From NCBI GenBank assembly GCA_015956445.1, contig WIUZ02000021.1, positions 62,001 to 126,000 on the forward strand: a stretch of DNA of 64,000 nucleotides. The letters run 5' to 3'. Every line of letters begins with the position of its first letter. The first letter of the stretch is position 1. Below the pieces are notes generated by a model that saw nothing but the letters and a program-made list of their open reading frames with translations, was not told the origin of the DNA and did no database searches. Below, piece by piece: positions 26,331 to 64,000 of this stretch. Made by a program: the position numbers and the translations under genes. The DNA is from Thelephora terrestris (Eukaryota > Basidiomycota > Agaricomycetes > Thelephorales > Thelephoraceae).

Positions 26331-26428
26331 CTGTGTGTCACGAACGTGTGACATATTGAGTAAAATCACACAGATTATTCAAGACATTCGTTCCATTTGT
26401 AGTAATAATACAAAACAAAACAAACAAA

Positions 26429-27296
26429 CTAGACAAGAAGAAAAGGGTCTACTTTACAAGCACAGTCCTGGTCCATCGGACAGCAATGGGCAAAGTGAAA
26501 GGGGTTATATATGGACCGAGGACAATAAGAATAATCCTGTGATACCGGATCCACCCAGCAGTCCCAACACCCCAGGACGTTGTGCTCCAGCCCATCAAAC
26601 ATATCCTTCCTCACTCGATCTAGTCCTTCACTCACTAGATCAAACTCATACTTGTCCTGCAGACTTGCCACCTCCAACTTCAACCACATGCGAACCTGTT
26701 GGGCCTTGCTCAACAGACGACACCACTGTCCAGAACGAGCCATTGGACTTTTGTGACTTTTCTTTGAGGTCCTCTCCACCATTTGAAGAACAGGAGCAGG
26801 ACTCCAGGGAGGGGATTGAGGGAGAGGAACCCCTTGATTCTGGCGGTGTCGGAGGGACAAAAGCGGAGGGCTGTGGCATATCCCAGCATTGGACTCCCTT
26901 GCAGTTGTGACCGAAATATCGGTAGAGAGATGCCTGGAAAGGTCCCCAATGTTCCAAGGCAAAGTGAGAGAAGTCTTTGTCCAAACTTCCAAACATGACG
27001 TACATAAGATCCATCCTCTTCTCCAACCTAGCAATCCTATCTTCCCTCTCTCGCTCCATGGCATCCAAAAGACGTGAGGGACCATTGTTCATAACGGTCC
27101 TGTTGGGGTCCTCGTAACCAGCCTGCTCCAAAAACTGAGGAGGAGCCTGGTGTTGGGTGAGGAAGTTGACGGCAACTTCATTGTCGAAAGCAATGTTGGC
27201 AGGGGTGTTGTACAAATGGTTGTCGACATCATAGGGGGTGGCGGCCTCATAAGGAGAGGCAGAGATGAAAGGGGTGGCAGTGGCGTTAAGAGACAT
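26429..27296 (-). CDS. A-element gene B, copy in A0
   Basis: This gene reads towards the TGTCACG end of A0. The first part resembles the other copies (YDVDNHLYNTPANIAFDNEV, then WGPFQASLYRYFGH). The distal part has a Cys/His-rich end (YSYCPRSIYNPFHFAHCCP). Two overlapping open frames cover the gene, as in every other copy. The function is unknown, and no gag, integrase or transposase motif is seen. It is diverged from A1-A4 and is described as a fossil. Confidence 0.55.
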
Positions 27297-27940
27297 AGTG
27301 TCAAAAGTTGTTTATGAGAGGGAGTTGGTTGTAGATTGGTGGGAGTGGAAAAGAGACGATGAAGGGGAAAAGACCAAGGAACCCCACAGGTTAAATACAT
27401 TCAGATCAATGGGACACTCAAAAGGGTAATGACAATAAGCCATTATTCATTGTTATCCTAAAAAGGATAAACAAACCCTCAGCCCCAATCACGATCCCAT
27501 CAATCCTGAGAAATCCCTGTTGATCAGGAGAAATCCCCATCGCCCTTTTATTACTACCGTGAAACCTGAGAAATCCCCATCGCCCTTCTATTACTACCCT
27601 AAAACGTGAGAAATCCCCATTGTGCTCCTATTGACTCATTCCCTATTGTTCCCCTATTTGCATTTACCATCAGTAGTCCTAAGTCCCACTTCTCTGACTC
27701 ATTCACCCTACCCTAAACTATGCACAGACCATGTTGACTCTCGTTTGACTCATTGTACGATTACTAAGCATGTAAAAGATTGGGTATATAAGGAAGAGCG
27801 TTCGCTCCTTTCTATTCCCCATTCTCAATCTCTTCTGTACTCTCCTACCAATTGCTCAAATAAACAAAGTAAGCTGAGGAATTCTCCTTACGTCTTATTC
27901 TTTATCTGACTCTTTCAAGCAGGAATTCTCCTGCTAGCGT
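27297..27940. promoter_or_regulatory. Two-way promoter of A0 with GAGAAATCCC repeats
   Basis: This lies between the divergent genes B and A. It holds four copies of GAGAAATCC(C) (27,509-27,620; GGGATTTCTC on the other strand) and a GGGTATATAAGG TATA box at about 27,782 in front of gene A. Confidence 0.6.
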
Positions 27941-28395
27941 ATGTTCAGCGCTCCTAACCCCTTCCCCTCCACTAGTCCTATTCAATGTCTGGTTATACCC
28001 GACACTCAATGCTCCATCTGGGAGTATAAGCTCATCAGGAGTCTTCAGCTTAATAGGACCTCCGGTCTATTAGCCCATCACCCATATTATCGCCCCTTCG
28101 CTGCCCTCGATGCCGGAGTAACCACTCCTCCGTTCTTACTCGGAGCTGATCACCAGTTCCTCTGGAAATCCGACTTTACTGAGAGCGTGCTAGCCACCAT
28201 CTAGTTCAGTATCAGTCCAGCCTTTTACTTTCCCACTCCCCAAATTCATCTAACTACCAATGTTCACACCCATCGTCCAGCTATCATCGTTCTCTGGTGG
28301 GACATACCAACTGATTTACCCTTTGCTGTTATAGAATATCTCAACAGCTTTGAGTGACTCAGTGATCAAGCTGTTCATTCAACATCTAGTTGAAC
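27941..28395 (+). pseudogene. A-element gene A, copy in A0 (interrupted)
   Basis: It begins MFSAPNPFPSTSP and reads towards the CCTGACA end of A0. It is interrupted by element A1 at 28396 and again by C1 at 34070, so its remaining sequence lies at 33,921-34,069 and 45,498-45,539. It is a broken copy of unknown function. Confidence 0.75.
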
Positions 28396-29322
28396 TGTCA
28401 GGATTGTAGGCCTGCTTACTGTTTGTGGGACGCTAGAGGATTAGCGGATGGATGAGGGGTGTCGGGTCTAACTTGGAAGGGGGTTCTGGGTGTAGAGACG
28501 AGAGGAGGGGGAATATCAAGAGAGAGAGGTGACTCTGTCTGATATGGATGGACGGGCGAGTGGTAGTCTTGGCAGAACTGATTAAGCTGCTGCACAAAAG
28601 GTTCGAAGTCTTGGTCGCTAAGGCGTTCGAAGTTGACGAGATATTCTATAACCGAATAAGGTAATTCAGTTGGGACTTCCCACCAGAGAACGATAATAGC
28701 AGGGGAACGGGTATGGATGTTAGTGGTGAGATGGACACGTGGGGAGGGAAAGTAAAAGGCTGGACTGATACTGAAGTAAACAGTAGCAAGAACGCTCTCT
28801 GTAAGATCCGAATTCCAGAGGAATTGATGATCTGCTCCTAGTGTCAGGGCCACTCTACCCTAACAACTACCAGTGCACTGAGCCGACTCCGCAGAGTACT
28901 CACTAGTCCAACTAGCTTGTGAGAGAACGATCACGTCTCTATTCTTCCGGTAGGTTGTCCGAGGTCACTACAAGTCAGGTCGAAATCCTAAAGAGAAACC
29001 CAACCTAAACCGTACTTCGTTCGGTTTAACAAGCAAGGGTTTATCCCTACAACAGGATTGATGACTCCACCAGTTAATCGACTGGACGCTCGAGGTGTTC
29101 TAATATGACTGCTGGGAGTCTATAGTTACGAGGCGCAGTTGACGCGCAGAGCGGGAGGGAGAGCAGATGGGGATGTCTTGGATCAAACAAGAAACTCTGA
29201 CTTGGCCTTAACTGCAACTGGGCTGAGAAGGGCAGAGGATTTCCTGAGGTAACAAAACTAAGGTACTACGATACAGCCACAGTTGCTACTTATACTAAAG
29301 GAGTGGCCATGACGTCAGTTCC

Positions 29323-29724
29323 CTAATATACCCTTATCAAGTCCGAACAAAGGGAGATAAGGAGTGTGGGAATGCTAAGTAAGGGAAGCGAACAACTATG
29401 ACGCGTGGGAGAATGAAGGACAAAGGGCCTTACTAGCATGTGAAGGATTGCATAAAAGATAAGGAATGTCCGCATGAAACATAGGGGTAAAGATAACACT
29501 AGTCCAAAAAGAAAGGGGAGCATGGGGTCATGAAAGTTCGTACCTGGGGATCTCACCCAAGGGCCAGGTGTCAATCTCCCTTTACATGGCCTCTGCCAGC
29601 TGGATTCGGGAGTAGAGACATTCAACATCCCTTGTTGTCTGTAGGCGGTAACAGCATCACGGACAAGTGGCAACCTCAACGTACGTCCGAACATGAGGAG
29701 GTCGGGCCTAGACTCATGGGACAT
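29323..29724 (-). CDS. Short conserved frame of B elements, copy in B1
   Basis: It begins MSHESRPDLLMFGRTLRLP and is kept open in all three B copies. It is oriented towards the left end of the element, upstream of and overlapping the region before the outward TATA box. There is no recognised domain. It could be a real short gene or conserved leader sequence. Confidence 0.4.
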   Translation of the reverse strand: MSHESRPDLLMFGRTLRLPLVRDAVTAYRQQGMLNVSTPESSWQRPCKGRLTPGPWVRSPGTNFHDPMLPFLFGLVLSLPLCFMRTFLIFYAILHMLVRPFVLHSPTRHSCSLPLLSIPTLLISLCSDLIRVY

Positions 29725-30218
29725 GAGGGATTACAGATTCGCCGGCGTTTCACGCTAACGGCTACTCCACATTCGCTGGGCTAAACAAAAGGAGTCTAAG
29801 GCACTCCTTCCGAATAACGGCGATTCCTTCCTCTGGTTAGGAGACTGTGATGTGACTGTCCACGTGTGTGATCAGGGTCCAGGGTTGATTGTAATCGTAA
29901 AGTCATGAGGGGTCGTAAAAGGGGTTCGTGATGTCATAAAAGGGGTCATCAGGGTCTTGGGACCTATTTTTAGTGCGCACGCGTTCTAGGCGTTCCGGAA
30001 CGAAGTTCTTCCAAGGCCGTCCCGCGGGCCGAGGTGTCAGCTTGATGTAGTAAGCCAACGATGATGGTACAGGGGCGGAACTTGATGTGACCCGGACCAA
30101 TGAGGTTCGTCGAGGTAGGTCACGTGAAGGATCACCGATCTAGGCTATAAGAAGGACGTCTTCTTGGAGCCATCCTTGATCAGCAACACCAGCAACTTCC
30201 CCATCATCTTACCAAAAC

Positions 30219-31823
30219 ATGTCCTTCCCCAACAACCATACCTACAAAGTCGCCAATGGTATCTCCACTATCTCTCGCATCGACCGTCGTGCCGCCGCTC
30301 GCAAGACCTATGCCTGTGCGGCTGGGACTCCCTATACCACGGATGACCAGGTATGGGGGAGACCTAGAGCTTTGTGTGCTAGCACTAACGCCTTCCTCTA
30401 GGTAGAGGTTACGTTCTTTTGGGCGTTGATGTCCAGCTAACGGCTTCTAGATCTTGGAGGTCGTCACGGAAGTGGACGCCGAACGTCTCAGGGAGACGAT
30501 GCCTCATTTGAAGGGATTGACCTGGGACGATGAGCTCTGGGTCCGTACGATCATCGCCGAGAAGGTGGCCTTCCAGATGAGGGGTAGGTTCGGGGAGCTG
30601 GAGCATCCGATCAAGAAGGAGCTCTGGTACACCCTGCAGAGGGGAATCTACGATCAAGACTTGTTGGAACACGGAGCGACCGTTCCTCGGGCCGTCCGCC
30701 ATGCTACCGCTTCCACTAGTCTCTTGTGGTCGCTCGTTCGAGAAGGAGAAAGCCGAGTAGGTTTTCTGTCTGAATATTCGAGTATGACTCTCGACTAACC
30801 AGACTGCCTAGGTTGAACGATTGGAGCGTGAAGTGAAGGAGGCGAAGGCAGACGTCCTTCGTTTGTCGGCGGAGGGTCTTCAGATGAAGGAGACCTTGGC
30901 AGCCTTCCAACAAGGGACCAACGAGGCGTTGGAGGCGATGGTCGCCAACCATCAGGAGTTGATCGCGGGGTTGAAGGTTCGGGACAACAACATCAAGGGG
31001 GCGTTGGCCAGGAGGGATGAAAAGGTAATGCCGCTTTCATCATTTGCTTAGAATGATGGAAGCTGACATTTCCTAGACCGAAGAACTCGAGAACGTAGTG
31101 GCTGTGTTGACAGCGCAGGTCGAGTCCTTGCAGGACAAGACCTGTAACTGTAAGGAGGGTCCCAAATTGGTTGGTCAGGGGACAGCCGATGTTCCGTTCG
31201 AGTTGGAGTACGCCGACGAGGTGGTACTCCCATCGCCTAACCCGTCGTCCTATGCGACGCCTCCGATCGAGAATGCGGTTCCCGTTCCGACTCCAGCTCC
31301 GGCTTCCACTCTGGCTGCTTCCGACAAAGAGAACTGTGGGCGCTGCGTCTTGCAGCCGATCCATCAGTTGGTGAAGATCAAGGATGAGGTCATGGAGGTT
31401 GACCGAGCTGAAGATGCTCCGAGGGTCGCCGAGGTACGTCCGGTGACTAAGGGGCAACGTTGCAAACGCTCTCAACGCCGTCCTGCTCATCGTATGACTG
31501 CGTCGGCTAATCCTTACCCTCAACCAGTTGAGTCGGATGGTGACCTCTCTGGTCGAGGTGGGGGACGAGAGTTCCGCTATCGAGTCAACCGTCCCTACCG
31601 ACAGGTCGAGTCGGAGATCCAGCTTTGCCACCAGCTACGACTCGCAAGACAGGATTCCGCCCAGGGGTCCGATGAGGGAGACGGAGGGTCGCTTGCCGAC
31701 TACGTCAACAGTACTGTCGAGCAGTCACCCGGTGATGGAGATGTGGGACCAGGTGTTCAGCAGTTCGGTGACATCTGGAAGGCTGATCGGTCCGCTCGAA
31801 GGTATCTCTTCCTATCGGCTTGA
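30219..31823 (+). CDS. B-element coiled-coil protein gene, copy in B1
   Basis: This is a multi-exon gene that reads towards the TGTTCCTGACA end. The first exon begins MSFPNNHTYKVANGIST and ends at a GTATGG donor. The next exon carries LTWDDELWVRTIIAEKVAF and YTLQRGIYDQDLLEHGA. A long heptad-type coiled coil follows (VERLEREVKEAKADVLRLSA), then a Pro-rich acidic region, a basic KGQRCKRSQRRPAHRM motif and an acidic tail. The domain with WDDELW and the coiled coil is homologous to the gene of C elements. It looks whole in this copy. No transposase, RT or integrase motif is present. The function is unknown; the basic motif suggests nucleic-acid binding or a nuclear signal. Confidence 0.65.
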
Positions 31824-32920
31824 ACTAGTCGTTCAGCTGAGTGCCGAAGATGGTGACGCCATGTTCGGGGAGGTTCTTGCGAGGAGGGGCCAGCACTACG
31901 ATCTCCGGGATGGACAGTTGATGACCTTCAGGCCTGCCGTAGATAGAGTCGACTTTTGATGGGATTGGGATAGCACTTGTATAGCTCGTTGTGGATTCGC
32001 TGGGAATAGTACGCGCGTGTGTATTTCGAATGATTGGTGTGAAGGATAAGGAGTGTGAAGCATTCAAAACATAAGAATTGGTAAGAAGAGTTCGAAGAAA
32101 GAGCGTGTTATAAAAAGTTTAAAAATACCATGTTCCTGACACCTAGGAGGAATGGAGGAGTGGTGACTCCGGCGTCGAGAGCTGCAAAGGGACGATAATA
32201 AGGGAAATGGGTGAGTAAACCTGCTGTTCGGTTTACTTGGAGACTTCTGATGAGTTTATACTCCCAGATAGATCTTCTGACGTCCGGGATGTTTGGTCGG
32301 AGGACTGGGCTGGTAGAGGGGAAAGGATTTGGGGAACTAAACATACACTAGCAGGAGAATTCCTGCTTGAATGAGTTAGAGAGAGTAAGATGTGAGGAGA
32401 ATTCCTCAGCTTACTTTGTTTATTCAAGTTGTGGGTAGGGGAGTACAGAAGAGATTGAGAATGGGGAAAAGAAAGGAGCGAACACTCTTCCTTATATACC
32501 CAATCCTCTACAGGAGTCATTATTCTACAACGAACCAAACAGGGATCAACATGGTCTGTGCGTAGTTTAGGGCAGGGTAGATGAGTCAGAGGAATGGGAC
32601 TTTGAGAGTGACGAATGATGAAATGAAATAAGGGAACAATAGAGGATGAGTCATTAGGAGTACAATGGGGATTTCTCACGTTTCATGGTAGCAATAGAAG
32701 CGTGATGGGGATTTCTCTAGTTTTGATGGGATCGCGATTGGGGTTGAGGGGTTGTTTATCCTGGGTTTCTAAATAGGTAGTGGTTTATTGTTTCCCCTTT
32801 TGGCGTCCCATTGAGTCAGTTTGTATATAATTCAGGGGCTTATTGGTCTTTTCTTCCCACCGTCTCTTTTCCTCCTCCACAATCTACCACTACTCTCCTC
32901 TCCGAACATCTCTGACTACA

Positions 32921-33815
32921 ATGTCTGCCTATGCCGCCAACAACGCTTTGCTCAACGCCGCTGCCACCCCCTTTGATCTCTCTCCGTCTTTCGAGACGGA
33001 TGCTCCCTTAGACGTGGAGCAACACCTCTACGACACCCCTGCCAACATCGCCCATGACAACCAGGTTGCCGTGGATTTCTTGACTGCTCATAATGCACCT
33101 GCCAAATTCTGGGAGCAGGCAGGGTATGAGGATCCTAATAGGACTCTCAGGTGGGCTCCTGGAGTCACTCCGATGCAGGACGCAATGGAGCAAGAGAGGG
33201 AGGACAGGATCTTGAAATTGGAGAAGAGGATGGACGTTATGTATGTCGTCGTCAACAGTCTTAATGAAGACTTCTCTCACTTTGCTTTGGAACACTGGAA
33301 ACCTTTCCAGGAATCTCTCCTCAGGTACTTCGGTCATCGATGCCATGGAGCGTACTGCACCGATGCAGCTCCTCACTCCCCCGTCGTCCCTCCGTCATTT
33401 TCAAGACCAGGGAGTCCCTCTTCCTCAGTCCCCTCCTTGGAGTCCTGTTCCGAGTCGTCAGTTGGTGGAGAGGACCCAGAAGAAAAGTCGCAAAAGTCCG
33501 ATGACTCGTACTGGACAACGTTGTCGTCCCTCCGACAAGTCACATCAGGTTCGGATGAAGTTGAAGGTGGAGGTAGCGGGTCTCCAGGACCGCTATGGGT
33601 TCGCATTGGTGAGCGCGGCGTTGACGGACGTGAAGCGGGAGATGTATGATAGTTTGTTTCACGGTGTGTTGGGGTGCAGGGAGTGTTGGCAGGATCCGGT
33701 AACGCGAGTATATTCGTACTGTCCTCAGAGCGTACACAACCCCCATCACTTCGCTCATCGTTGTCCGTTTGCTCAGGACTGTGCTTGTGATGTGGACCCT
33801 TTCGTCCTTGTTTAA
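32921..33815 (+). CDS. A-element gene B, copy in A1
   Basis: ATG at 32921 follows a TATA box (GTATATAATTC, about 32,822) at typical spacing. The protein begins MSAYAANNALLNAAATPF and contains DVEQHLYDTPANIAHDNQV, HNAPAKFWEQAGYEDPNR, a short coiled coil (EREDRILKLEKRMDVMYVVV) and FSHFALEHWKPFQESLLRYF. The distal part ends with a Cys/His cluster (YSYCPQSVHNPHHFAHRC, then CACDVDP). Two overlapping sense frames cover the gene. It looks well preserved. No homologue is recognised. Confidence 0.6.
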
Positions 33816-34624
33816 GTTTGTAGTTTTTACCGGTCGTCTTTGTACTTTTACTACTGCAAATAAGACCAATGTCTTGAATTACTTGTGTGATCTTGGCTAC
33901 TATGTCACGCGTTCGTGACATGAACACTGCCAAGACTACAACTCCTCCATCCATCCTTATCAGTCCAAGTCACCACTCGCTCTTGATATCCCTCCTCCTC
34001 TCGTCTCTACTCCAGGAACCCCCTTCCTCAAAACTTGTCTGGACAGTCCCTATCCCGCTAATCCTCTAGTGTCAGCGTGCTGAATTTTATTCCCCTTTTG
34101 AACCATTTTTCACACCCAACTTTCGCCTACTTTCCTTACCCATACCCCTTTCTTATCTTATCTGTCCCCCTTATCACGAACTCACACGTCATCAAAGAAC
34201 ACAGACAAAGGCACAGATGATATTACACACGGACGCGCACACGACGAACAGCCAACGGAGTTGAATCCGCACGGACTCTATGGACGAGGACCAAGGTGTA
34301 CCGACCCTAGTCGTCAAGACCAAGTCTGCCAATACTCCTCAGCACTGGCAACCTCCTCCTCTGTCCCCTCCGAGGCACTCTCGACGACTTCCTCGTCGAC
34401 CATCTCGACGACCCGAGCTTCCTCCAGACGATGAGCTACGGCCAGCTGAACCTCAGCGCGCAGGCGGTTCCTCGCTGAATCGACCATAGTCTGATCCAGA
34501 GTCCTCTGGACTGACCAACCCTCCACTCTCTCGGTCAGTTGAGCCACCAGGCAAACAGCCTCCGCTGCACGCTGGACCAACAAGAGCATAAGGTCGGTTA
34601 AGCCGTTCACGTCGACGGTGACAT

Positions 34625-35634
34625 GCCTCCATTCTCTGGAGTACTCGTCGGTGACATTCCCTACGTCCCTTTCCCTCGGGATGCTTCGCGATGTTTCGCG
34701 ATGTTTCGCGATGTTTCTATACTCTCTATACCTTCCTACCCCCCCCCTATGCATCCCTATACTTCCCTACATACCCATATATCTCCCTTTACCTCACTAC
34801 TCCCTTCCCTATACTAACCTACTCGTCCCGATGCTTCGCGACCTTCCCGATGTTTTAGTATTCTCCCTATCTCTCGCTACCCCCCCCCGACCTCCCTATA
34901 TCCCTCCCAACACTACACCATTCACGACCCCTCCTATATCTTCTCCCGACTTCCCTATACCTTCGCGATATCTCCCTACACCATTCCCCTCGATCTCTCA
35001 ATCCCTATGCTCGATCATTCCCTTTTGGTTCATTTCTCAACCACATCTCTTTCCTTGGTCGTTCCCTTCGATCCCTCGCCCTCCCTATGTCATAGACTCG
35101 TCATTAGGTCTTTTGACATCATTTGGTTCATTCCCTCTTGCTTCCTACATTCTCAGAGCCTCCTAGATTAGTATATAAGCCTCTGTATTCGATAGACTCA
35201 ACAGAGACCAATCCAGGGGACTGATTCCCATGTTTTCCTCTCCCTATCGTTCTCCTCTCGTCGTCGTCGTCTCCCTATAGTCTCCTGCGTCTTCCCTATC
35301 GTTCTCGTCGTCATACCCGCGTCTCTGCGTTCTCGTCGTCATCTCTAGCGTCCTGTCGTCATCCCGAAGATCCCGACCTCCCGAAGTTCTCGTCGTCGTC
35401 CCGAAGTTTTCCCTCGTCGTTCCTTTGTCTGTTTCATTGATTCCCTTCTGTTATCTTTAGTTATCTTTAGTTCCCTCTTGATATCTACTTCTCCCTACAC
35501 GTCCCGACATTCCCGACGTTCCCGACGTTCCACTACATTTCCCTACAGTTCCCTACGTGTCCCTACGGAGCTAGGAGGCATCGTACGACTAAGGACCACC
35601 TTCATCGACGTTGACAGGGCACCCCATCTTCTCC
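34625..35634. other. Pyrimidine-rich segment with a TATA box inside C1
   Basis: A 1-kb stretch rich in ccctat and cttccc words, with tandem gatgtttcgc repeats at 34,690-34,715 and tcgtcgtc runs at 35,255-35,400. A TATA-like AGTATATAAGCC is at about 35,170, followed by a start-site-like region. C2 lacks this block, so it is either an intron-like expansion or a further insertion. No gene is supported. Confidence 0.45.
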
Positions 35635-35637
35635 CCA

Positions 35638-36981
35638 CACTGGGGGCAGAGGTTGGTTTACTGAGTCAGTAAACTGTGAGTAAATCACAAGTAAATGGAA
35701 AAAGAACCTAGCAAAATACTTGCCTGGCAAGCACAAAGCAAATTCACAATTTACTGAGCCAATTTACCTGCAATTTACTGGGTTCAGTATGTGCTCAGTA
35801 TGTTTACAGTTTACTGGGTCATGTGACCACAGTTTCCCCATTAGGTAAACCTCGGAAAAATTCACAATTTACTGAATAAATTTACCTGCAATTTACTGAG
35901 CCACTTGCCCAATCAGTATGTTTTTAATTTGCTGAGTGGTTTGATCATGGTTTACTGAACTCAGTAAACTGGAAAAAAACCAAACTGGTTTACTGACAAC
36001 ATTCCTGATTGGTCAATTCTAAAAATAACCGAAAATTTACCTGGACGTGTCATTGTCAGTAAACTGCAAGTTTTCTTTCAGTAAATTGGAAATACACGTC
36101 AGGTAAACTGGGAAAACACATAATGATTTGATCGTGGTTTACTGGACTCAGTAAATCAGAAAAAAACCTAACCGGTTTACTGACGATGTACCTGATTGGC
36201 TAATTTGAAAATTTACCAGGACGTGTCCTTATCAGTAAACTGCAAGTTTTCTTTCAGTAAATCACAATTACACGTAAAGTAAACCAGAAAACACGTGTAA
36301 ACTGCGAGTAAATCCAAAGTTTACGTGTTTTCTGGTTTACTTTACGTGTAATTGTGATTTACTGAAAGAAAACTTGCAGTTTACTGATAAAGACACGTCC
36401 TGGTAAATTTTCAAATTAGCCAATCAGGTACATCGTCAGTAAACCGGTTAGGTTTTTTTCTGATTTACTGAGTCCAGTAAACCATGATCAAATCATTATG
36501 TGTTTTCCCAGTTTACCTGATGTGTATTTCCAATTTACTGAAAGAAAACTTGCAGTTTACTGACAATGACACGTCCAGGTAAATTTTCGGTTATTTTTAG
36601 AATTGACCAATCAGGAATGTTGTCAGTAAACCAGTTTGGTTTTTTTCCAGTTTACTGAGTCCAGTAAACCATGATCAAACCACTCAGCAAATTAAAAACA
36701 TACTGATTGGGCAAGTGGCTCAGTAAATTGCTGGTAAATTTGTTCAGTAAATTGTGAATTTTTCTGAGGTTTACCTAATGGGGAAACTGTGGTCACATGA
36801 CCCAGTAAACTGCAAACATACTGAGCACATACTGAACCCAGTAAATTGCAGGTAAATTGGCTCAGTAAATTGTGAATTTGCTTTGTGCTTGCCAGGCAAG
36901 TATTTTGCTAGGTTCTTTTTCCATTTACTTGTGATTTACTCACAGTTTACTGACTCAGTAAACCAACCCCTGCCCCCAGTG
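35638..36981. mobile_element. Palindromic CACTG element 1 (CACTA-type, non-autonomous)
   Basis: A 1,344-bp nearly perfect palindrome: the two halves are reverse complements of each other, with the centre near 36,310 (AAACACGTGTAAACTG...). It begins CACTGGGGGC and ends GCCCCCAGTG, with the 3-bp duplication CCA on both sides (35635-35637, 36982-36984). CACTG ends with a 3-bp duplication are the marks of the CACTA (EnSpm) superfamily. It has many internal GTTTACTG and CAGTAAAC words and no coding capacity. Confidence 0.8.
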
Positions 36982-37658
36982 CCATCAGACCATTACTCCC
37001 ATAGCCCCTGTTCAACGGACTCCACCGGAATCAACTCGCCGCGATCCATGCAACACTGCAGCATCGTCGCATCGGAATAGGACGGTGGACTCGATGTCTC
37101 CACCCTGGCGGACAGCGTTGGGATTACTGGGACGCATGCGGTGCGCTGGACGAAGTGCCCCACGATAAGGAACCCAACGACGAGCACGGATAGAACGCTG
37201 CCCATGCACCGGCGAGATCGACGGAGGCGGAACCGGAACAGCCACCTCGTTCTCCCCCGCATACTCCAACTCGGGAGAACTGCTAACCGGATTCACGGCC
37301 GTCTCCTCAGACGTCTCGCGGACGACCTCTTCCCCGCTGTCAGTATGCGCCGGTGTACGGTACGAACCATCGGAGGCTAAAACGGATGTCAGTGGACAAG
37401 CCAAACATGTCAACTGACATCCCACCTATTGGGGAAGCCATCCGATCTGGAATCGACTCATCCTCGGACTCGTCGCGAACCGCAGCTACCGAACGCGTAC
37501 GGCAATGACACAACCACTCGCTCATGGACTCCACCCGAGCACCCAGCAACGGCAAAGCGTCGTCCAACGTGTCAACCTAGAAGTGGTATGAGCTCCCTCG
37601 GATCAAGACCAGGGGAAGGCACACCGACCTTGGTGTCCAACTCATTCAAGGCCCTTCA

Positions 37659-38142
37659 CACTGGGGGCGAGGGGACCTGGAAACAAGTGATTACATGCTG
37701 AAAACATTGTGAGACCAGGTGCACTTCTCTCACAATGTTACCACTGATTATAGATGGGAAACATTTTGAATGTAAACTTAACATGTGACTGAAATGTTTC
37801 CACTGGCAATGGGTTGATTACATTTCAGATGTAACTTTGACATGTGTTTGGGATGTATTCACCAACCCGCATTCAGTTAACATGTGACGCAATTGCCTTA
37901 TAAGGAAATTACGTCACATGTTAACTGAATGCGGGTTGGTGAATACATCCCAAACACATGTCAAAGTTACATCTGAAATGTAATCAACCCATTGCCAGTG
38001 GAAACATTTCAGTCACATGTTAAGTTTACATTCAAAATGTTTCCCATCTATAATCAGTGGTAACATTGTGAGAGAAGTGCACCTGGTCTCACAATGTTTT
38101 CAGCATGTAATCACTTGTTTCCAGGTCCCCTCGCCCCCAGTG
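37659..38142. mobile_element. Palindromic CACTG element 2 (CACTA-type, non-autonomous)
   Basis: A 484-bp full-length palindrome starting CACTGGGGGCGAGG and ending CCTCGCCCCCAGTG, with target duplication TCA (37656-37658, 38143-38145). The centre is near 37,900 (CAATTGCCTTATAAGG). The interior differs from element 1; only the ends are shared. It has no coding capacity. Confidence 0.8.
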
Positions 38143-54000: not shown

Positions 54001-54789
54001 ATGGTACCCGGACTCGTGCTGGGTGACCCAAAATGGGTTTTAGAACCTAAATATATCATAGAATAGTTAGTGTGTATGAGGACTAGGGCCCTACTTACCT
54101 GGAAGGACCCAAAACACGAGGGGAGGGGCTGCACCGCAGGCGCAGGCCAGCAGGGAGGCCGCGGCGTGAGCATTCCCAAAAAGGAAGGCCCGATCAATTC
54201 GGGTGGTGAGCTGGCACATCCTGGCACAAAAATCGAACATTGTGAGCTCAATTCTCATCCGTTTAAGGTCAAAACTAGCGGGATGGACTACGTTTTATGT
54301 ATTCTATAAAGTAGATTTTTTCCAGTTTTTTTCACAAATTTTCAGCGTCATATGTTTCGAACCGGGAAGTGGAACCATTTTTATATAAATTAAATAAAAC
54401 ATATGAACACAAGGCGAGCGGCATGACCCCCAGGTGGGTGCCCAGGAAGGGGGGGACCAGGAAGGGGTTTCCCACAAACAGGCATCCTCCCGGGGCAGTA
54501 TTGATGGAGGGAGGCGCTCGAAGGAAGCGAGGGGAGGCCAGGGAACCCGCGTGATGGCGGTATTTGTCGCGGTTCCATCATTTGATGGCGGGGGAAGACC
54601 CAGGGCGCACCCGATCATCCCCCGACGTGTCACCGAGCCTGGTTCTCATGGTTTGGGGTATATACAGATGATATACAAGCTATATACAAATATCAGTAGG
54701 CTAGAATAATATACAAATGTGCGGAGTTGTTGCACGAAAGTTGCGGCAGTCAATCCGTGTTTGTATTACAGATTGGGTAAGTACGGTTG
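51060..54789. mobile_element. Element D: long-inverted-repeat (foldback) transposon in the promoter of A3
   Basis: D is 3,730 bp. It starts CAACCGTACTTACCC and ends GGGTAAGTACGGTTG, with the 7-bp duplication CCATCAA (51053-51059, 54790-54796). The arms run to about 52,190 and 53,610. The outer about 770 bp of the arms are nearly identical apart from a roughly 30-bp difference near 54,560; the inner about 360 bp are clearly diverged. The central about 1.4 kb (52,190-53,610) has no recognisable gene. It looks like a non-autonomous DNA transposon; the superfamily is not assigned (a hAT or Mutator relative would be guesses). Confidence 0.8.
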
Positions 54790-55132
54790 CCATCAAACCC
54801 CAAGAAATCCCCATTGTGCTCCTAATGACTCATTCACTATTATTCCCCTAGTTCATTTCGTTCTTGTTGTTCTAAAGTCCCACTCCTCTGACTCATCTAC
54901 CCTGCCCTAAACTACGCACAGATCATGTTGATCCCTGTTTGGTTCATTGTAGAATAATGACTCCTGTAGAGGATTGGGTATATAAGGAAGAGCGTTCGCT
55001 CCTTTCTTTTCCCCATTCTCAATCTCTTCTGTACTCCTCTACCCACAACTTGAATAAATAAAGTAAGCTGAGGAATCCTCCTCACGCCTTATTCCCTTCT
55101 AACTCATTCAGCAGGAATTCTCCTGCTAGTGT

Positions 55133-55822
55133 ATGTTCCAGGCCCCAAACCCTTTCCACTCTACTGGTCCAGTCCAGCGACCAGTTGTCCCAGACGCCAG
55201 GAGATCTATTTGGGAGTATAAACTCATCAGGAGTCTCCAAGTAAACCGAACAGCCGGTTTACTCACTCACTTCCCTTACTATCGTCCCTTCGCAGCCCTC
55301 GACGCCAGAGTTACCACCCCCCCTTTCCTCTTAGGAGCTGATCATCAATTCCTCTGGAATTCAGACCTTACTGAGAGTGTCCTAGCAGCTGTCTACTTCA
55401 GTATAAGTCCAGCCTTCTATTTTCCCAACCCGCGCATCCATCTCACCACTAACATCCATACCCATTCCCCTGCTATTATCGTTCTCTGGTGGGAAGTACC
55501 AACTGAATTGCCTTATTCGGTTATAGAATACCTCGCCAACTTCGAACGTCTTAGCGACCAAGACTTCGAACCGTTTATACAGCAACTGAGTCAGTTCTGT
55601 CAGGATTACCATTTGCCCGTCCACCCCTATCAAACAGAGTTTTCACTCTTGCTCGATATCCCTCCTCCTCTCACATCTACACCCGGCACCCTGTTCAAAA
55701 CCCGACCTGACACTCCTCACCCGTCCGCTAATCCTCTAGCGCCCCCACAAACAGTAAGCAGGCCCACAACCCTGACATATCGCGCTGACCTCTCGCAGAA
55801 GTCAACCGGCTTATTAATCTGA
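55133..55822 (+). CDS. A-element gene A, copy in A3
   Basis: It begins MFQAPNPFHSTGPV and keeps all conserved blocks of gene A (SIWEYKLIRSLQVNRTAGLL, ADHQFLWNSDLTESVL, IIVLWWEVPTELPYSVIEY). The frame runs past the CCTGACA end of A3 into the flanking E1 sequence. A GGGTATATAAGG TATA box is at about 54,976. The function is unknown. Confidence 0.6.
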   Translation: MFQAPNPFHSTGPVQRPVVPDARRSIWEYKLIRSLQVNRTAGLLTHFPYYRPFAALDARVTTPPFLLGADHQFLWNSDLTESVLAAVYFSISPAFYFPNPRIHLTTNIHTHSPAIIVLWWEVPTELPYSVIEYLANFERLSDQDFEPFIQQLSQFCQDYHLPVHPYQTEFSLLLDIPPPLTSTPGTLFKTRPDTPHPSANPLAPPQTVSRPTTLTYRADLSQKSTGLLI

Positions 55823-55926
55823 CCCTTGGATTGGACTCATGAAAACCATTATGTTTTACGACTCATGGATCACACGCAATAAACAAGATAGAATATGGAT
55901 TCCAAGGAGCAGTACAAAAGAGTTAT

Positions 55927-57126
55927 TTAATCAATATCTCTGCGAATCCTTTGTACTGTCTCCAAGGCCGACCTCACCAACTCTTCGTTCGCCCAGTTCT
56001 GCTCCCTAATCTCGTTCGGATCTACATCGGACAAGTCATTGTAATTAGGGAGATCCTCCGTATCAGAATTCGGTTCCGAGTCAGGAACAAACTCAGCGTA
56101 CGGATCAAAGTCCTGGACTGGCCATCGTCCCCTCTGCTGAGTGGTGTCCGTCACGGTAATGAGAGGAGTCAACCTCCTAACCGGATGAGGAGTATCCCTA
56201 CAGACAACTCCAACATTTCGGTAGAACTCCTCCTCTCGAATCTCCACCACCTCATCGTCAATTGGAACCAACCGGTTTTCATACTGGACCAAAAGGCGAG
56301 CAGGCGGAGACTCGGCCCACTCCGGAACCTCCAACTCTTCTTCCTCAACTCGAACCTCCGGTTCGTTACACCTCCTCTGGAGATCCCGGACTTCTCCGGT
56401 CAACTTGGAGACACGATGAGTAAGGTGAACCTAAAGGAACAGGGTTAGAAGAAACCAATTATCTTCGATCCCTGCCCCTGTACCTTATCGTCCTCCAATT
56501 CTCCGGTCTTAGTGACCAGACTCCGGATCAAATCCTTGAGAGTAACGAACTCTCCCTTCAGCATATCAATATCGGCACCCTGCTGAATGATCACATCCTC
56601 TTGTCCTTGCATAATATCTTGAGCGGTCCCCTTCCATTCTTCAAGCTTAGCAATGTCCTCCTTCTTACTGTTAACTCAGGCCTGAACATAGGCCAACTCA
56701 TCCATCAACATAGTACCAACATTACTCGTATGAATAACGCTGGCCTCGAGGATCGAGTTATAGGTCTCGTTTGTTTCAGTAACGAACTCAACCCCACGAG
56801 TCAGGAGTTCTTCTGCATAAGGGTTGGTCTTGATACACGCCAACTTGCGCCGAGACACCCTTCGAGAAGCTTGGATGAAATTCCTGAAACCTAAAACGGA
56901 ACGTCAGTAGACATGCCAAATATGTCAACCGACATCCCGAACCTAAGTCAGTAAAACCCTCATTAGGGTCAGCGGTGGCGGAACGATCCATGACGTTCCC
57001 AAGAGTGGAATAAGGGCAGGACCGATCACAACGAGCATGAGAGAAACAGTCGATGTTGAAATTGTTCTCCATAACAGGAGAGACGGAAGCACGACAAGAG
57101 GTAGAACAGATGTTGGCACGAGGCAT
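55927..57126 (-). pseudogene. E-element coiled-coil gene, copy in E1 (decayed)
   Basis: It begins MPRANICST at 57126 and has the same exon order as the E2 copy: an N-terminal Ser/Arg-rich exon, a helical part with RRVSRRKLACIKTNPYAEEL, a coiled coil, and an acidic C-terminus (DPYAEFVPDSEPNSDTED, then VQRIRRDID). Compared with E2 it shows many C-to-T type differences, including Arg-to-Cys replacements. Fossil; broken by a small number of changes. Confidence 0.6.
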
Positions 57127-58102
57127 GTTGGCTGTGTGTAACAAAGGTGGGTTTGTTGAGAGACCTAGTCATCCAACCCCCTTTGGTTATATACCAAATG
57201 CCACGCCCCTTCCATGACTCAGGAGTTGAGTCATCTTTGCTATTGTTTACTGCGCATGACCCACATGACATCATATGCCCCTATTTCTTAGTCATATGCT
57301 CCCCTTTTGCCATTGGCTGTTAATCAGCCATACCCACATTCCTTCCGAACATTCTCAGGATACGTCATGCTTTGTAACTGCTTTGTAATGCTCTAAAATT
57401 GCTATTGGCCGCCACACCTTTGTTTATCAGCTGATAATTTGTAGCATTAGTCACCACGTAATGCACAGACCATGCAGTGCTGCGCACGGACCATGTTTGT
57501 CTGTGTTTGTATCTTTAGTGTAGTTACTTGTCACTGTCACGTCACAAATCTAAGTAGTATATATACTCAGAGTAGTTTAGCCTGTACTCCTTAGATTTGT
57601 TATCATCAGACTCTCCGTGACCTCTACTGCTGTGTGCTTAGAGCAAGAGTGCCTGAAGACCCTTGTCTCCTTCTTTCTCCTTCTCTCCATCTCTAGTCTG
57701 TGAAGAGACTTCCGATATCCCTGGGTTTGCAACAGGGAGATTACTGTGTGTTTGACCCCTGAGTGTGATAGGTTTGGATAGCAAGAGTGCTATTGAACTG
57801 TAGAGGTCGTGTCGGCCTGACATCTGGTGGTGTCAGCATTGTGGGGTCTTCTGCGGATGGGGATCTATGACCTGGGAAACAGTGAAGGAAGGTGGCCTGG
57901 AGCTACTCGCTCTCAACACTACACAGCAGCCGTTGGTCACCATCTCTGGTTCCTATTGCAGATGGAACAGAAAGCGGTGAGTCGGTCTGTGCGTCCCACT
58001 TGTGGGATAACGCTGATTGGCTCTGTAGAATGAACATCTGAAGCGCGAGGTGAAGGAAGCAAAGGACGACGCTTGCAGGATGTACTCGGAGATGCTGGAC
58101 AC

Positions 58103-60521
58103 TGTCAGGCCGACGTGACCTCTACAGTTCAATAGCACTCTTGCTATCCAAACCTATCACACTCAGGGGTCAAACACACAGTTATAACCCTGTTGCAAAC
58201 CCAGGGATATCGGAAGTCTCTTCACAGACTAGATTGGAGAGGGGGAGAAAGAAGGAAACAAGGGTCTTCAAACACTCTTGCTCTAAGCACACAGCAGTAG
58301 AGGTCACAGAGAGTCTGATGATAACAAATCTAAGGAGTACAGGCTAAACTACTCTGAGTATATATACTACTTAGATTTGTGATGTGACCGTCACATGTAA
58401 CTACACTATGGATACAAACACAGACAAACATGGTCCGTGCGCAGCACTGCATGGTCTGTGCGTTACGTGGTGACTAATGCTACAAATTATCAGCTGATAA
58501 ACGAAAGTGTGGCGGCCAATAGCAATTTGAGAGCATTACAGAGCAATTACAAAGCATGACGTATCCTGAGAATGTTCGGAAGGAATGTGGGTATGACTGA
58601 CTAACAGCCAATGGCAAAAGGGGAGCATATGACTAAAGATAGGGGCATATGATGTCATGTGGGTCATGCGCAGTAAACAATAGAAATGATGACTCAACTC
58701 CTGAGTCGTGGAAGGGGCGTGGCATTTGGTATATAACCAAAGGGGGTTGGATGACTGGTCTTCCAACAAACCCACCTTTGTTACACAGACAACATGCCTC
58801 GTGCCTCTACTCGCAATCCCACTCGTCGTTCCTCCTCCTACTCTCCTGTTCAGGAGAACAATTACAACATCGACCGCTTCTCCCATGCCCGCCGTGATCC
58901 GTCCCGCCCTTATCCTACTTTGGGAGCGGTTATGGACCGGACCGCCACCGCCGACCCTAATGAGGGGTTCTCTGATTTAGGTGGGGGCCCTGCTTGCGAA
59001 TTCCGATTTAGGAAGCCAAGCTAACTCCTTTTAGGTTTCAGGGACTTTCTCCAAGCTGCTCGTAGGGTGTCTCGGCGCAAGTTGGCGCGCATCGAGACCA
59101 ACCCTTATGCGAACGAACTCCTTAATAGGGGTGTTGAGTTCGTGACCGAGGCCAACGAGACCTTCAACTCCGTGTTGGAGGCCAGCGTTCTCCATACGGG
59201 GAACGTTGGGTCCATGTTAATGGACGAAGTGGCTCATGTCAATGAGCGTATTGATGGTCGTCGTGAGGAGATAGAAGCGTTGGAGAATTGGAAGGAAGAC
59301 ATGCAGGGAGTTATTCACGGACAGGAAGATAGCGTTGTTCGGCAGGGGGCCGATATCGATTTGTTAAAGGTAAATGTGGGGTCGGGAGATATTTGACTTT
59401 TCTAACCCAACATTTCCTTTAGGGAGAGGTGACTACTTTGAAGGACTTGGTCCGGGCTCTGGTTACCAAGACTGGAGAATTGGAGGATGATAAGGTAAGG
59501 GGTAGGGGTTGAAGGTTTTCGATATCTTCTAACCCTATTCCTTTAGGTTCGCCTTACTCGTCGTGTCTCCGAGTTAACCGGAGAAGTCTGGGATCTCCAG
59601 AGGAGGTGTAACGAGCCAGAGGTCCGAGTCGAAGAAGAGGAGGGAGAGGAGGTTCTGCATCGGGCCGGGTCGCCGATAATTCCCAATCGGGCTGAGTCGC
59701 CACCCGCTCGTTTATTGGTTCGTCACGAAAATAGGTTGGTTCCCGTCGACGATGAGGTCATTGAAATCGGGAGCGACGAATTCTATCAGAACGTAGGAGT
59801 CGTCCGTAGGGACACTCCTCGTCCTGAGTTCGTTTCTACTCCTTGGGGTAGTCGCCGTCAATGGCCTGCTCTGGAGTATGATCCGTACGCCGAGTTCGTT
59901 CCCGATAGTGAACCAAACTCTGATACGGAGCTTCCAGATTACGAAGACCTGTCGGACGTAGACCCGAACGAGATCCGGGAGCAGAACTGGCTGAATGAGG
60001 AGTTGGTGAGGTCGGCATTGGAAGTAGTACAAAGGATCCGAAGAGATATTGATTAGATAACTCTTTTGTACTGTTGGCTTCCAATGAATCTTCTTTCTAT
60101 TTTGTCTATTGCGTGTGATCCATGAGTCGTAAAGCATAATGATTTTCATAAGTCCAATCCAAGGGTCAGATTAATAAGCCGGTTGACTTCTGCGAGAGGT
60201 CAGCGCGCGACGCTTATTAATACATCCCTTGTTGTCGGTAGCCTGAATATCTACTAGTCGTCCAGGGGCAACGGAGGGCCAGGTAGGGGGGATCTTCGTA
60301 TGAAGGTCCGCCGGTACATGTTCACGTATTATACCTCGGGTCTTCTGGGGTATCTTGACTAGTAGCACATTCCACGTATTGGACTTTGAGTCGTTTAGGC
60401 ATAGGGCATACTGCATAATAAACAGTTTACCGCCGTGTTTAGGGCAGGGCACCAACTGACTTAGTGGTGATGAGGCGTTAAATAAAGGAAATGAAAGGGG
60501 GTAAACGGCGAAATCATCACA
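58103..60521 (+). mobile_element. E-type element E2, inserted in C2
   Basis: E2 is 2,419 bp, starts TGTCAGGCCGACGTGACC and ends GGCGAAATCATCACA, with the 5-bp duplication GACAC (58098-58102, 60522-60526). It looks whole. An outward TATA box (TATATATACT at about 58,359) faces the left end. Its main gene is 58794-60056. On the minus strand, 60,171 to about 60,420 is a second open segment (WPSVAPGRLVDIQATDNKG) which may be a short convergent gene. Confidence 0.9.
58794..60056 (+). CDS. E-element coiled-coil protein gene, copy in E2
   Basis: ATG at 58794 lies about 65 bp after a TATA-like TATATAACC (about 58,730). The first exon reads MPRASTRNPTRRSSSYSPVQ and ends near LG at about 58,981. Further exons start at about 59,039, 59,423 and 59,548 and have GT-AG borders (GTGGGG, GTAAAT, GTAAGG donors). 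The middle is a long coiled coil (IDGRREEIEALENWKEDM, LVTKTGELEDDKV), and the end is acidic (DPYAEFVPDSEPNSDTELPD, then VVQRIRRDID). Overall plan, coiled coil then acidic tail, parallels B and C genes, but no close sequence match is seen. It looks whole; function unknown. Confidence 0.65.
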
Positions 60522-61086
60522 GACACCGAGAAGACTCTCCTCTTGATGAATGACACACTTCGTGTGACATTCGAGAGTGAGATGCTGGCGATGCGAGAGG
60601 AACACAACTGACTAGTTGAGTCCTTGAGGGAACAAGACGACACCATCCAGAGGGACTTGATTGAGGTCGACTGACGACTCAACCGTCATAGAAGGGCTTT
60701 GAACGAGTTGGACACCAAGGTTGGCGTGATGTTCCCCCGTGATGATCGGAGGAAACTCATTCCACTTCTAGGTTGATACGTTGGATGATGCCTTGCCACT
60801 GCTGGGTGCTTGGGTTGAGTCCATGAGCGAGCGGTTGTGCCATTGCCGCACTTGTTCGGTGGCTGCCGTCCGTGATGAGTCCGATGACGAGTCAATTCCA
60901 GACAGGATGGCTTCGCCAGCCTCTGGCGGTTCGTACCACACGCCAGCATGTACCGATGGCGGGGAGGAGGTTATCCGTGAGACGTCTGAGGAGACGGCGA
61001 TCAACCCGGTTAGTAGTTCGCCCGAGTTGGAGTACGCGGGGGAGAATGAGGTGGCCGTTCCGGTTCCTCCTCCTTCGATCTCTCCG

Positions 61087-61926
61087 CACTGGGGGCAAGG
61101 GGTCACTTACCCAGCAATTACATTGTGATTACATTGTGATTTTTTAGACAATGTGTCCAGCCTGTGGCCAGGAGGTACATGCTGAGTTCTTTTACAAAGT
61201 ACCCATCAATGTGATCACAATGTGGCCAGTGGGTCCAACTTGATCACCTTTACAAAGTACCCATCAATTCGATCACAATGTGCCCTGTGGGTCCATGCAG
61301 GATACATTGTAAAAGTATTCATCAAAGTGGCCACTGGGCACTTTGTGAAAGAAACACCTGGGTTCTTTCACAATTTTGCTTACAATGTATCCAGCATCCA
61401 CCTGAGCCACTCATTGAAAGTTCTTTCATAAAGTATCCAGCAATGTGTCCACAAAGTATTCAACCAGATACTCAATGGTTTCTTTGAGAGTTTGTTGTGA
61501 AATCCAACCACATTGAGAGTTCATTGTGAAAACATTAAGAAGAACCTCCTGGGGACATTGTGGTCACATTGCTGGTTACTTTTTGAAAGAACTCTCAATG
61601 AGTGGCTCAGGCACCCAGTAGGATAAATTGTAAATAATATTGTGAAAGAAAACCCTGGTTTCTTTCACAAAGTGCCTGGTGGCCACTTTGATGAATACTT
61701 TTACAATGTATCCTGCATAGGCCCACAGGGCACATTGTGATCGAATTGATGGGTACTTTGTAAAAGTGATCAAGATGGACCCGCTGGCCACATTGTGATC
61801 ACATTGATGGGTACTTTGTAAAAGAACTCAGTATGTACCTCCTGGCCACAGGCTGGACACATTGTCTAAAAAATCACAATGTAATCACAATGTAATCGCT
61901 GGGTAAGTGACCCCTTGCCCCCAGTG
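61087..61926. mobile_element. Palindromic CACTG element 3 (CACTA-type, non-autonomous)
   Basis: An 840-bp palindrome starting CACTGGGGGCAAGGGG and ending CCCTTGCCCCCAGTG, flanked by CCG and CCA (two of three positions match). The interior is rich in CACAATGT and TTTACAAAGTACCC words. Its halves are reverse complements with small differences. It interrupts the C2 gene. Confidence 0.75.
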
Positions 61927-62465
61927 CCAGTGCGTAGATAATGTTCCATTCGTGCCTGTCAATGGGTTCCTTACAACGGCGCTCGTCGTCCAGCCCATCG
62001 AATGTGTCCCAGTAATCTCAACATCGTCCGACAGGGAGGAGACATCAAGTCCACCATCCTATTCCGACGCGACGATGTTGCAGTGTTGCCTGGATCGTGG
62101 CGAGCTAATCCCCGTGGAGTCCGTCGACATGAACAGGTTAATGAACCTTATGCTCTTGTCAGTCCGGCGTGCAGCGGAGGCCGTGAGGTTGGTGACTCAA
62201 CTGACCGAGAGGATGGAGGGCTGGTCAGTGCAGAGGACTCGGGATCAGACTATGGTCGATTCAGCGAGGAGCCGCCTTCGTGCTGAAGTTCAGCTGGCCA
62301 TAGCTCATCGTCTGGAGGAAGCTTGGGTCATAGAGATGGTCGATGAGGAAGTCACCGAGAGTGCCTTGGAGGGGACAGAGGAGGAGGAGGTTGCCAGTGC
62401 TGAGGAGTACTGGCAGACCAGGTCTTGATGACTAGGGCTTGTACACCTTAGTTCTTGTCCATAGT

Positions 62466-62519
62466 GTCAGGCCGACGTGACCTCTACAGTTCAATAGCAC
62501 TCTTGCTATCCAAACCTTT
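62466..62519 (+). mobile_element. E-type element E3, left tip only
   Basis: TGTCAGGCCGACGTGACC and the following 36 bp are identical in kind to the E2 left end, then A4 begins. E3 presumably continues beyond A4, outside the window. Confidence 0.7.
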
Positions 62520-62539
62520 TGTCAGGGTTGTGGGCCTGC

Positions 62540-63163
62540 TTACTGTTTGTGGGGCGCTAGAGGATTAGTGGACGGGTGGGGAGTGTCGGGTCGGGTTTTA
62601 AAAGGGGTTCCGGGTGTGGGAGTGAGGAATGGAGGGATACCAAGAGCGAGTGGTGACTTGGTTTGATAAGGGTGAACGGGCGAGTGGTAGTCTTGGCAAA
62701 ACTGACTTAGTTGCTGAACAAACGGTTCGAAGTCTTGGTCACTGAGACGTTCGAAGTTTACGGGGTATTCTATAACCGAGTAAGGTAATTCAGTTGGGAC
62801 TTCCCACCAAAGGACAATGATAGCAGGGGAGTGAGTATGAATGTTAGTGGTGAGATGAACGCGAGGATTCGGGAAGTAGAAAGCCGGACTTATACTGAAG
62901 TGGACCATTGCTAGAACGCTCTTAGTAAGGTCTGAGTTCCAAAGGAACTGATGATCGGCTCCTAAGAGGAAAGGGGGAGTGGTGACTCCGGCGTCGAGGG
63001 CTGCAAAGGGGCAATAATAAGGTAAATGAGTGAGTAAACCGGTGGTTCGGTTTACTTGGAGACTTCTGATGAGTTTATACTCCCAGATAGATCTCCTGGC
63101 GTCTGGTACGACTGGGCGTTGGATGGGACTAGTAGAGGGAAAAGGGTCGGGGGGACTGAACAT
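62540..63163 (-). CDS. A-element gene A, copy in A4
   Basis: It begins MFSPPDPFPSTSPIQRP and is collinear with the A2 copy over its whole length (about 207 codons), stopping about 20 bp inside the element end. The frame is also open upstream of this ATG to 63385, but that part overlaps the TATA region and is unlikely to be translated. Confidence 0.62.
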   Translation of the reverse strand: MFSPPDPFPSTSPIQRPVVPDARRSIWEYKLIRSLQVNRTTGLLTHLPYYCPFAALDAGVTTPPFLLGADHQFLWNSDLTKSVLAMVHFSISPAFYFPNPRVHLTTNIHTHSPAIIVLWWEVPTELPYSVIEYPVNFERLSDQDFEPFVQQLSQFCQDYHSPVHPYQTKSPLALGIPPFLTPTPGTPFKTRPDTPHPSTNPLAPHKQ

Positions 63164-63767
63164 ACACTGGCAGGAGAATTCCTGCTTGAATGAGTCAGAA
63201 AAGAGTAAGACGTGAAGAGTATTCTTCAGCTTACTTTGTTTATTGAGGTTATGGGTAGAGGAGTACAGAAGAGATTGAGAATGGGGAAAAGAAAGGAGCG
63301 AACACTCTTCCTTATATACCCAGTCCTCAACAGGAGTCATTATTCTACAACAAACCAAACAGGGGTCAACGTGGTCTGTGCGCACTTTAGGGTAGGGTAA
63401 ACGAGTCAGAGAAGTGGAACTTAGAACGACAGATATCGAGTGCGAAATAGGGGAACAATAGCGAATGAGTCATTTAGGAGTTTGGTGGGGATTTCTCCCG
63501 TTTCATGGTAGTAATAGAAGAGTGATGGGGATTTCTCTTGATCGATGGGGATTTCTCTAGATTTGATGGGATCGCGATTGGGGTTAAGGGTTCGTTTGTC
63601 CTAATTGGGTTTTAAATGGATGATGGTTCATTGTCTTCCCCTTTTGGCGCCTTATTGAGTCAGTTGTATATAATCCAGGGGGATTATTGGTCTTTTCCTC
63701 CCATCGTCTCTTTTCCTCTCCCACAATTACCACTACCACCCTTTCCTCTGAAACATCTTCTACTACT

Positions 63768-64000
63768 ATGTCTGCCTACGTTGCCAACAACGCTGTGCTC
63801 AACGCTGCCGCCACCCCCTTCGACTTCTCTCTGTCTTTTGAGACGGATGCTCCCTATGACGTGGAGCAACACCTTTATGATACCCCTGCCAACATTGCTC
63901 ACGACAATCAAGTGGCCGTGAACTTCCTAACCGCTCACAATGCTCCCGCCGAGTTCTGGGAACAAGCCGGATACGAGGACCCCAGGGCTTCTAGGCCTCG
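63768..64000 (+). CDS. A-element gene B, copy in A4, 5' part
   Basis: It begins MSAYVANNAVLNAAATPF at ATG 63768, downstream of a GTATATAATCC TATA box (about 63,665). It is cut by the window edge after AEFWEQAGYEDPR. Confidence 0.6.
   Translation, partial: MSAYVANNAVLNAAATPFDFSLSFETDAPYDVEQHLYDTPANIAHDNQVAVNFLTAHNAPAEFWEQAGYEDPRASRP

Follow-up and report, generated by a model that had tools for sequence, protein, structure and literature searches.

The window analyzed here is a 64,000-nucleotide stretch of Thelephora terrestris DNA (Basidiomycota; GenBank assembly GCA_015956445.1, contig WIUZ02000021.1, positions 62,001 to 126,000 of the forward strand). From position 26,331 onward, self-comparison and reading of the junctions resolved the window into mobile elements nested in one another, of which ten have both ends inside it (A1 to A4, B1 to B3, C1, E1 and E2) and three are partial copies (A5, E3 and C2). 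The insertions are genuine. On balance, we favor reading these sequences as non-autonomous, gene-bearing elements that were inserted by a Ty3/gypsy-type integrase from outside, for which solo long terminal repeats (LTRs) would be the most economical anatomy.

Target duplications, empty sites and element ends

The outermost element, A3, contains A2 (with B1 inside) and C1 (with A1 and B2 inside). E1 adjoins A3 and contains A4, which in turn contains B3 and a further insert, element D. Beyond E1, C2 contains E2, and E3 is cut by A5. The elements, their main genes and their target-site duplications (TSDs) are listed below by position in the window.

26336-45539, minus strand: A3, outermost; TSD CTGTG at 26331-26335 and 45540-45544; contains A2 and C1; gene 1 broken
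28396-33920, plus strand: A2, within A3; TSD TGAAC; gene 1 interrupted by B1
28842-32141, plus strand: B1, within A2; 3,300 bp; TSD CCTAG; 465-codon spliced gene model, open
34070-45497, minus strand: C1, within A3; TSD TCTAG; contains two fold-back inserts, A1 and B2; its gene is a homologue of the B gene
39200-41510, plus strand: A1, within C1; 2,311 bp, uninterrupted; flanks GACTC/GTCTC
39220-39843, minus strand: A gene 1 of A1; 207 aa, intronless; its stop codon is element bases 21-23
40502-41405 (outer limits), plus strand: A gene 2 of A1; last exon Cys/His-rich
41889-45190, plus strand: B2, within C1; TSD TCGGC; open spliced gene model
46286-57822, minus strand: E1, contains A4; flanks GGTTG/TCTGG; gene with at least one internal stop and without intron 2
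46600-55777, minus strand: A4, within E1; TSD TATCG; contains B3 and D; gene 1 open and extending beyond the element end, gene 2 broken
47179-50482, minus strand: B3, within A4; TSD CAAAG; open spliced gene model
57823-62464, minus strand: C2, partial copy of C; contains E2 and a fold-back insert
58103-60521, plus strand: E2, within C2; 2,419 bp; TSD GACAC; ends TGTCA..TCACA; 367-codon spliced gene model
62465-62519, plus strand: E3, initial 55 bp of another E copy; cut by A5
62520-64000, plus strand: A5, partial, runs off the window; gene 1 open

Direct reading of the junctions gave an exact 5-bp TSD in 8/10 complete elements (binomial P = 4e-23). The flanks of A1 agree at 4/5 bases, and those of E1 show no duplication and lie in different contexts. 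E1 is most readily explained by recombination between two E insertions and, because it looks recombinant in this way, recombination between copies is probably at work. There were 2,839 TGTCA..TGACA pairs more than 300 bp apart (a count that leaves out E2, which ends in TCACA), and equal 5-bp flanks occurred in seven of them (2.8 expected at 1/1024), all seven being elements already defined by homology. Empty sites were sought for six elements (B1, C1, B3, A4, E2 and A2). With the uninterrupted A1 as comparison, an empty site with a single copy of the 5-mer was found for B1, C1 and B3, and an empty site in diverged sequence was found for A4 (compared with E2) and E2 (compared with C1), while for A2 in A3 the sequence was too diverged to show a single 5-mer. 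The TGTCA ends and 5-bp duplications listed in the original prediction, which was made from the sequence alone, are thus real. Chance duplication, the alternative it had set against itself, is rejected by the pair count and the binomial P, and is ruled out by the empty sites and by the exact duplications that bound, at their outermost ends, eight units defined by homology.

All families start with TGTCAGG, on the side upstream of the gene in B, C and E. Read inward, the opposite end is TGTCACG or TGTCACA in A, TGTCAGG in B, TGTCAGC in C and TGTGATG in E, so the unbroken inverted match between the two ends is 5, 7, 6 and 3 bp in A, B, C and E, respectively. The TGTNR...YNACA pattern was present at the termini of A, B and C (TGTCA..TGACA), and the TCACA end of E, which reads TGTGA inward, also fits TGTNR. 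Past 7 bp, inverted similarity of the ends did not rise above shuffles in A1, B2, C1 or E2, with A1 being borderline within 250 bp (p 0.055), and no direct or inverted subterminal similarity between ends was found in A1, B2 or E2.

Past 7 bp, ends of different families are related only in the case of the 5' ends of B and C, so a common enzyme for A, B/C and E is not required. The earlier proposal that they form one mobilization group is favored only by the TGTCAGG start common to all families, the 5-bp TSD and a pair of short motifs. The first motif, CATGGTCTGTGCG, occurs in A and E with nine matches at up to one mismatch (0.07 expected; e.g., 40048-40060, 32550-32562 and 58450-58462), and the second, ACATCCCTTGTTGTCNGTAG, in B and E with five matches at up to three mismatches (0.01 expected; e.g., 29625-29644 and 60222-60241), these numbers being copies and not independent events. 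Lying in otherwise unrelated sequence, the two motifs hint at a common regulator or machinery.

Genes carried by the elements

Element A holds two divergent genes. Gene 1 is open in A1, in A5 and in A2 when read across B1; it is also open in A4, where it runs past the element end, and is broken in A3. Its ratio of nonsynonymous to synonymous substitution rates (dN/dS) was 0.09-0.14 in six pairs (A1, A2, A4 and A5, with A3 dropped). For gene 2, compared among A1, A2 and A3 (A4, with its broken frame, and A5, which is cut, were dropped), dN/dS was 0.25-0.30 in the first part and 0.08-0.24 in the Cys/His-rich last exon. The B gene model has four exons and 465 codons, with a 100-bp intron 1 that may be two abutting introns, and is open in 3/3 copies (dN/dS 0.11-0.13, and 0-0.11 for exons 2 and 3). 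The A and B genes are under purifying selection (dN/dS about 0.08-0.30), which agrees with the predicted conservation of the genes between copies. Because this selection persists between copies, the genes probably help the element, in a coiled-coil, Gag-like or regulatory role. The B and C proteins are homologous (41% identity), and the C gene, which is interrupted by fold-back inserts, has an intron at the position of B intron 2. Since B and C carry the same diverged gene, the elements fall into three families (A, B/C and E); the four groups first proposed hold for A and E, and B and C are not separate.

Divergence is unevenly spread along the elements. Per 100 bp, A1 and A2 differ by 1-13% in the gene 1 half and by 9-34% in gene 2. 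Copies of B differ at 12-14% of exonic third positions, 3-5% of intron positions, 1.7-3.6% of the 1.38-kb 5' flank and 3.5-10.4% of the 3' flank, so that exonic silent sites diverge several times more than introns and 5' flank (28842-32141, 41889-45190 and 47179-50482). The contrast of third positions with introns gave Fisher p values of 0.011, 2e-5 and 6e-4 in the three pairs; between B2 and B3, for example, there were 34/173 differences in exons 2 and 3 vs 8/205 in introns. In B2, differences clustered near 934-985 reflect local exchange. The element copies are mosaics. Two possible ideas on the excess in B exons are that spliced copies took part in exchange or that selection favored evasion of mRNA-directed silencing.

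The E gene was modeled in E2 with four exons and 367 codons, and the E1 gene has at least one internal stop. By codon position, E1 and E2 differ at 145/355 third positions (41%) and at 80/356 and 41/355 of the others; divergence is 4-5% over most of the flank, rising to 11% immediately downstream of the gene. For introns 1 and 3, it is 48% and 19%, respectively. As the whole E gene is divergent, introns included, exchange limited to exons does not fit E. The 53-bp intron 2 of E2 is precisely missing from E1 (58103-60521 compared with 46286-57822). This absence was considered as proof of an RNA intermediate and rejected: intron 2 is similar to introns 1 and 3 of E (of 36 comparisons made, three that involve it were at about p 0.003 or less, by shuffles), so a gain of the intron is as likely as a loss.

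Neither reverse transcriptase (RT), RNase H, integrase nor transposase was found in Pfam frame scans that included every element sequence once, in six frames and with serine in place of stops (four of six frames for 45191-46598, a segment with 302 bp from the gene-upstream end of C1). The set of RT, RNase H and integrase domains expected of a complete Ty3/gypsy retrotransposon is therefore missing from these scans, and the original remark that no mobility enzyme is recognizable held. Its suggestion that the cargo proteins may be a set not described before also agrees with our results, since no Pfam family scored above cut-off for ten single open reading frames (ORFs), nor for five proteins or exons searched at E values up to 10. 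The matches below cut-off were 12TM_1 and LapA_dom in the frame scan, ten for B and five for E, mostly to coiled-coil families, and no Pfam match to Gag was seen among the element proteins. Alignments of A gene 1, B/C and A gene 2 gave 0, 2 and 2 matches, respectively, in a PDB sequence search with an E limit of 1; none was credible, the lowest E being 0.2. Structure models were not usable, with mean predicted local distance difference test (pLDDT) scores of 33 for A gene 1 and 55 for B exon 2, and Foldseek returned no match at E <= 0.001 for the latter, poor model. No relatives were found in viral contigs, nor, for gene 1 only, in prokaryotic genome contigs, these collections being uninformative for fungi. 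At the RNA level, Rfam gave five matches below cut-off, four of them within fold-back repeats. With 40 shuffles per window of the scan, no structure signal was seen in the B 5' flank, and some windows in B and E coding sequence reached z scores of -3 to -5.

Other inserts lie in the stack. Element D (51060-54789, in A4) is a class II element of 3.73 kb, without Pfam match, that has inverted repeats of about 1.1 kb (91% identical overall, with long 100% stretches) and a 7-bp duplication, CCATCAA. Three fold-back inserts, at 35638-36981 and 37655-38146 in C1 and at 61086-61927 in C2, have the ends CACTGGGGGC...GCCCCCAGTG, which we take to resemble CACTA-type ends; those in C1 are flanked by 3-bp repeats (CCA and TCA), and that in C2 has no exact flanking repeat. 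No element copies were found in the first 26 kb of the window (self-comparison, matches of at least 60 bp at E <= 1e-5). There, 7/10 ORFs tested had a Pfam match, with XRN1 domains, P450, LRR and WD40 above cut-off and F-box below.

How the elements may have moved

Our best inference from the sequence is that an enzyme encoded elsewhere drives the elements, and a gypsy-type integrase is the best fit because of the ends, the duplication length and the lack of inverted repeats. Linear DNA with TGTCA...TGACA ends would be joined to a 5-bp staggered cut by an integrase of retroviral fold, which none of the elements encodes and which would be supplied in trans. The elements may have originated as very long, gene-carrying LTRs, left as solo units once LTR-LTR recombination had removed the internal pol region; alternatively, each could be a stand-alone unit that borrows the same integrase. 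Solo LTRs are the commonest source of such single units.

Several observations weigh against this reading. Self-comparison revealed no LTR pair, terminal direct repeat or internal region for the ten complete elements in the window, and no integrase was seen. The elements measure 2.3-5.8 kb (C1 being inflated by fold-back inserts), which is very long for a fungal LTR. Element A is filled by its genes, one of which ends 20 bp from the terminus, leaving little space for LTR signals. C1 alone has a short direct match between its ends that beats shuffles. Finally, the introns of the B and E genes and the corresponding C intron have the sense orientation of their gene, which argues against an LTR origin because copying of a sense genomic RNA should lose them. 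More tentatively, the whole mobile unit may be an LTR-like cassette that has ends of the integrase type, bears one or two selected genes and lacks pol, whether as gene-carrier LTRs in solo form or as satellites whose coiled-coil proteins recruit the gypsy integrase.

The main rival, to which we give a somewhat lower probability still, is that a relative elsewhere in the genome supplies a transposase, and that the elements are cut-and-paste DNA transposons whose inverted ends are very short and whose genes are accessory or cargo. The compact, gene-filled A with its two divergent genes, the intron-bearing genes of B, E and partly C, and the presence of one unit per insertion in 10/10 cases would all suit such transposons. 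Cargo genes are also known in fungal DNA transposons; PlavakaA has TGT..ACA ends but 2-bp TSDs, and the CMCT clade has TSDs of 2-5 bp but mostly CA..TG ends (PMC12730594). However, no DDE or other transposase domain was found in the Pfam scans, the ends of A1, B2 and E2 share no subterminal similarity, and the match in C1 is direct and not inverted. That the elements are autonomous, with an unrecognized recombinase or transposase among their own proteins, is improbable. Their genes are conserved (dN/dS 0.09-0.14 for A gene 1 and 0-0.11 for B exons 2 and 3) and, without a Pfam family, could have a new fold, but the activity would have to be present in each of three unrelated sets of proteins, and the B and E proteins match Pfam only below cut-off, mostly in coiled-coil families, with an impression of much disorder from their sequences. 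It is less probable still that ordinary host gene families merely sit in repeats flanked by chance duplications: although no transposon domain was found in the element proteins, the exact duplications of eight homology-defined units (P about 4e-23) and the empty sites refute the insertion part of that explanation.

If LTRs or LTR-like units do move singly with selected, intron-bearing genes, a set of element-borne genes would be hidden wherever repeat annotation discards solo LTRs and repeats classed as 'unknown'. It would also raise the question of how an integrase obtains a linear substrate that ordinary reverse transcription did not make.

Comparison with known systems

The TGTNR end pattern is that of Gypsy LTRs and of Ginger DNA transposons, and the Ginger2-group elements TDD-4 and TDD-5 also have 5-bp TSDs as found here (PMC2836005). 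Ginger elements mostly have 4-bp TSDs, encode a Gypsy-integrase-like DDE transposase and carry inverted repeats of 40-270 bp (Ginger1) or about 50-180 bp (Ginger2) (PMC2836005). No such inverted repeats are present in the window elements, and the Ginger-type mover that the original prediction had allowed for is not supported. Ginger is rejected because inverted similarity ends after 3-7 bp, and its DDE transposase was not found in the Pfam scans. LARD and TR-GAG are non-autonomous LTR elements with two LTRs, TR-GAG having one gene with a Gag domain. The window elements resemble them in being non-autonomous and dependent on enzymes from elsewhere (for LARD, PMC3411680) but differ in having neither long terminal direct repeats nor a Gag match.

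Among DNA transposons, the 5-bp TSD of hAT5 (PMC12730594) fits, but no hAT transposase domain was found in the Pfam scans. PlavakaA fits in its TGT..ACA termini, but its TSD is 2 bp and not 5 bp as here. Fungal elements with an extra gene are alike in carrying cargo; unlike the window elements, they encode a recognizable transposase, and their TSDs are given as 2, 3, 6, 7 or 8 bp. Gene-bearing solo LTRs in fungi were not described in the titles and opening lines of abstracts among the literature matches listed. TCN3, a Ty3/gypsy element of Cryptococcus neoformans, has 5-bp duplications, occurs as solo LTRs and has an LTR of 606 bp (PMC12810828). Unlike its solo LTRs, the window elements measure 2.3-5.8 kb, carry selected genes, with introns in B and E, and have no full-length partner in the window. 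Their likeness to Ty3/gypsy solo LTRs lies in the TGTNR-type ends, the 5-bp duplications, the single unit without an internal region and the lack of long inverted repeats.

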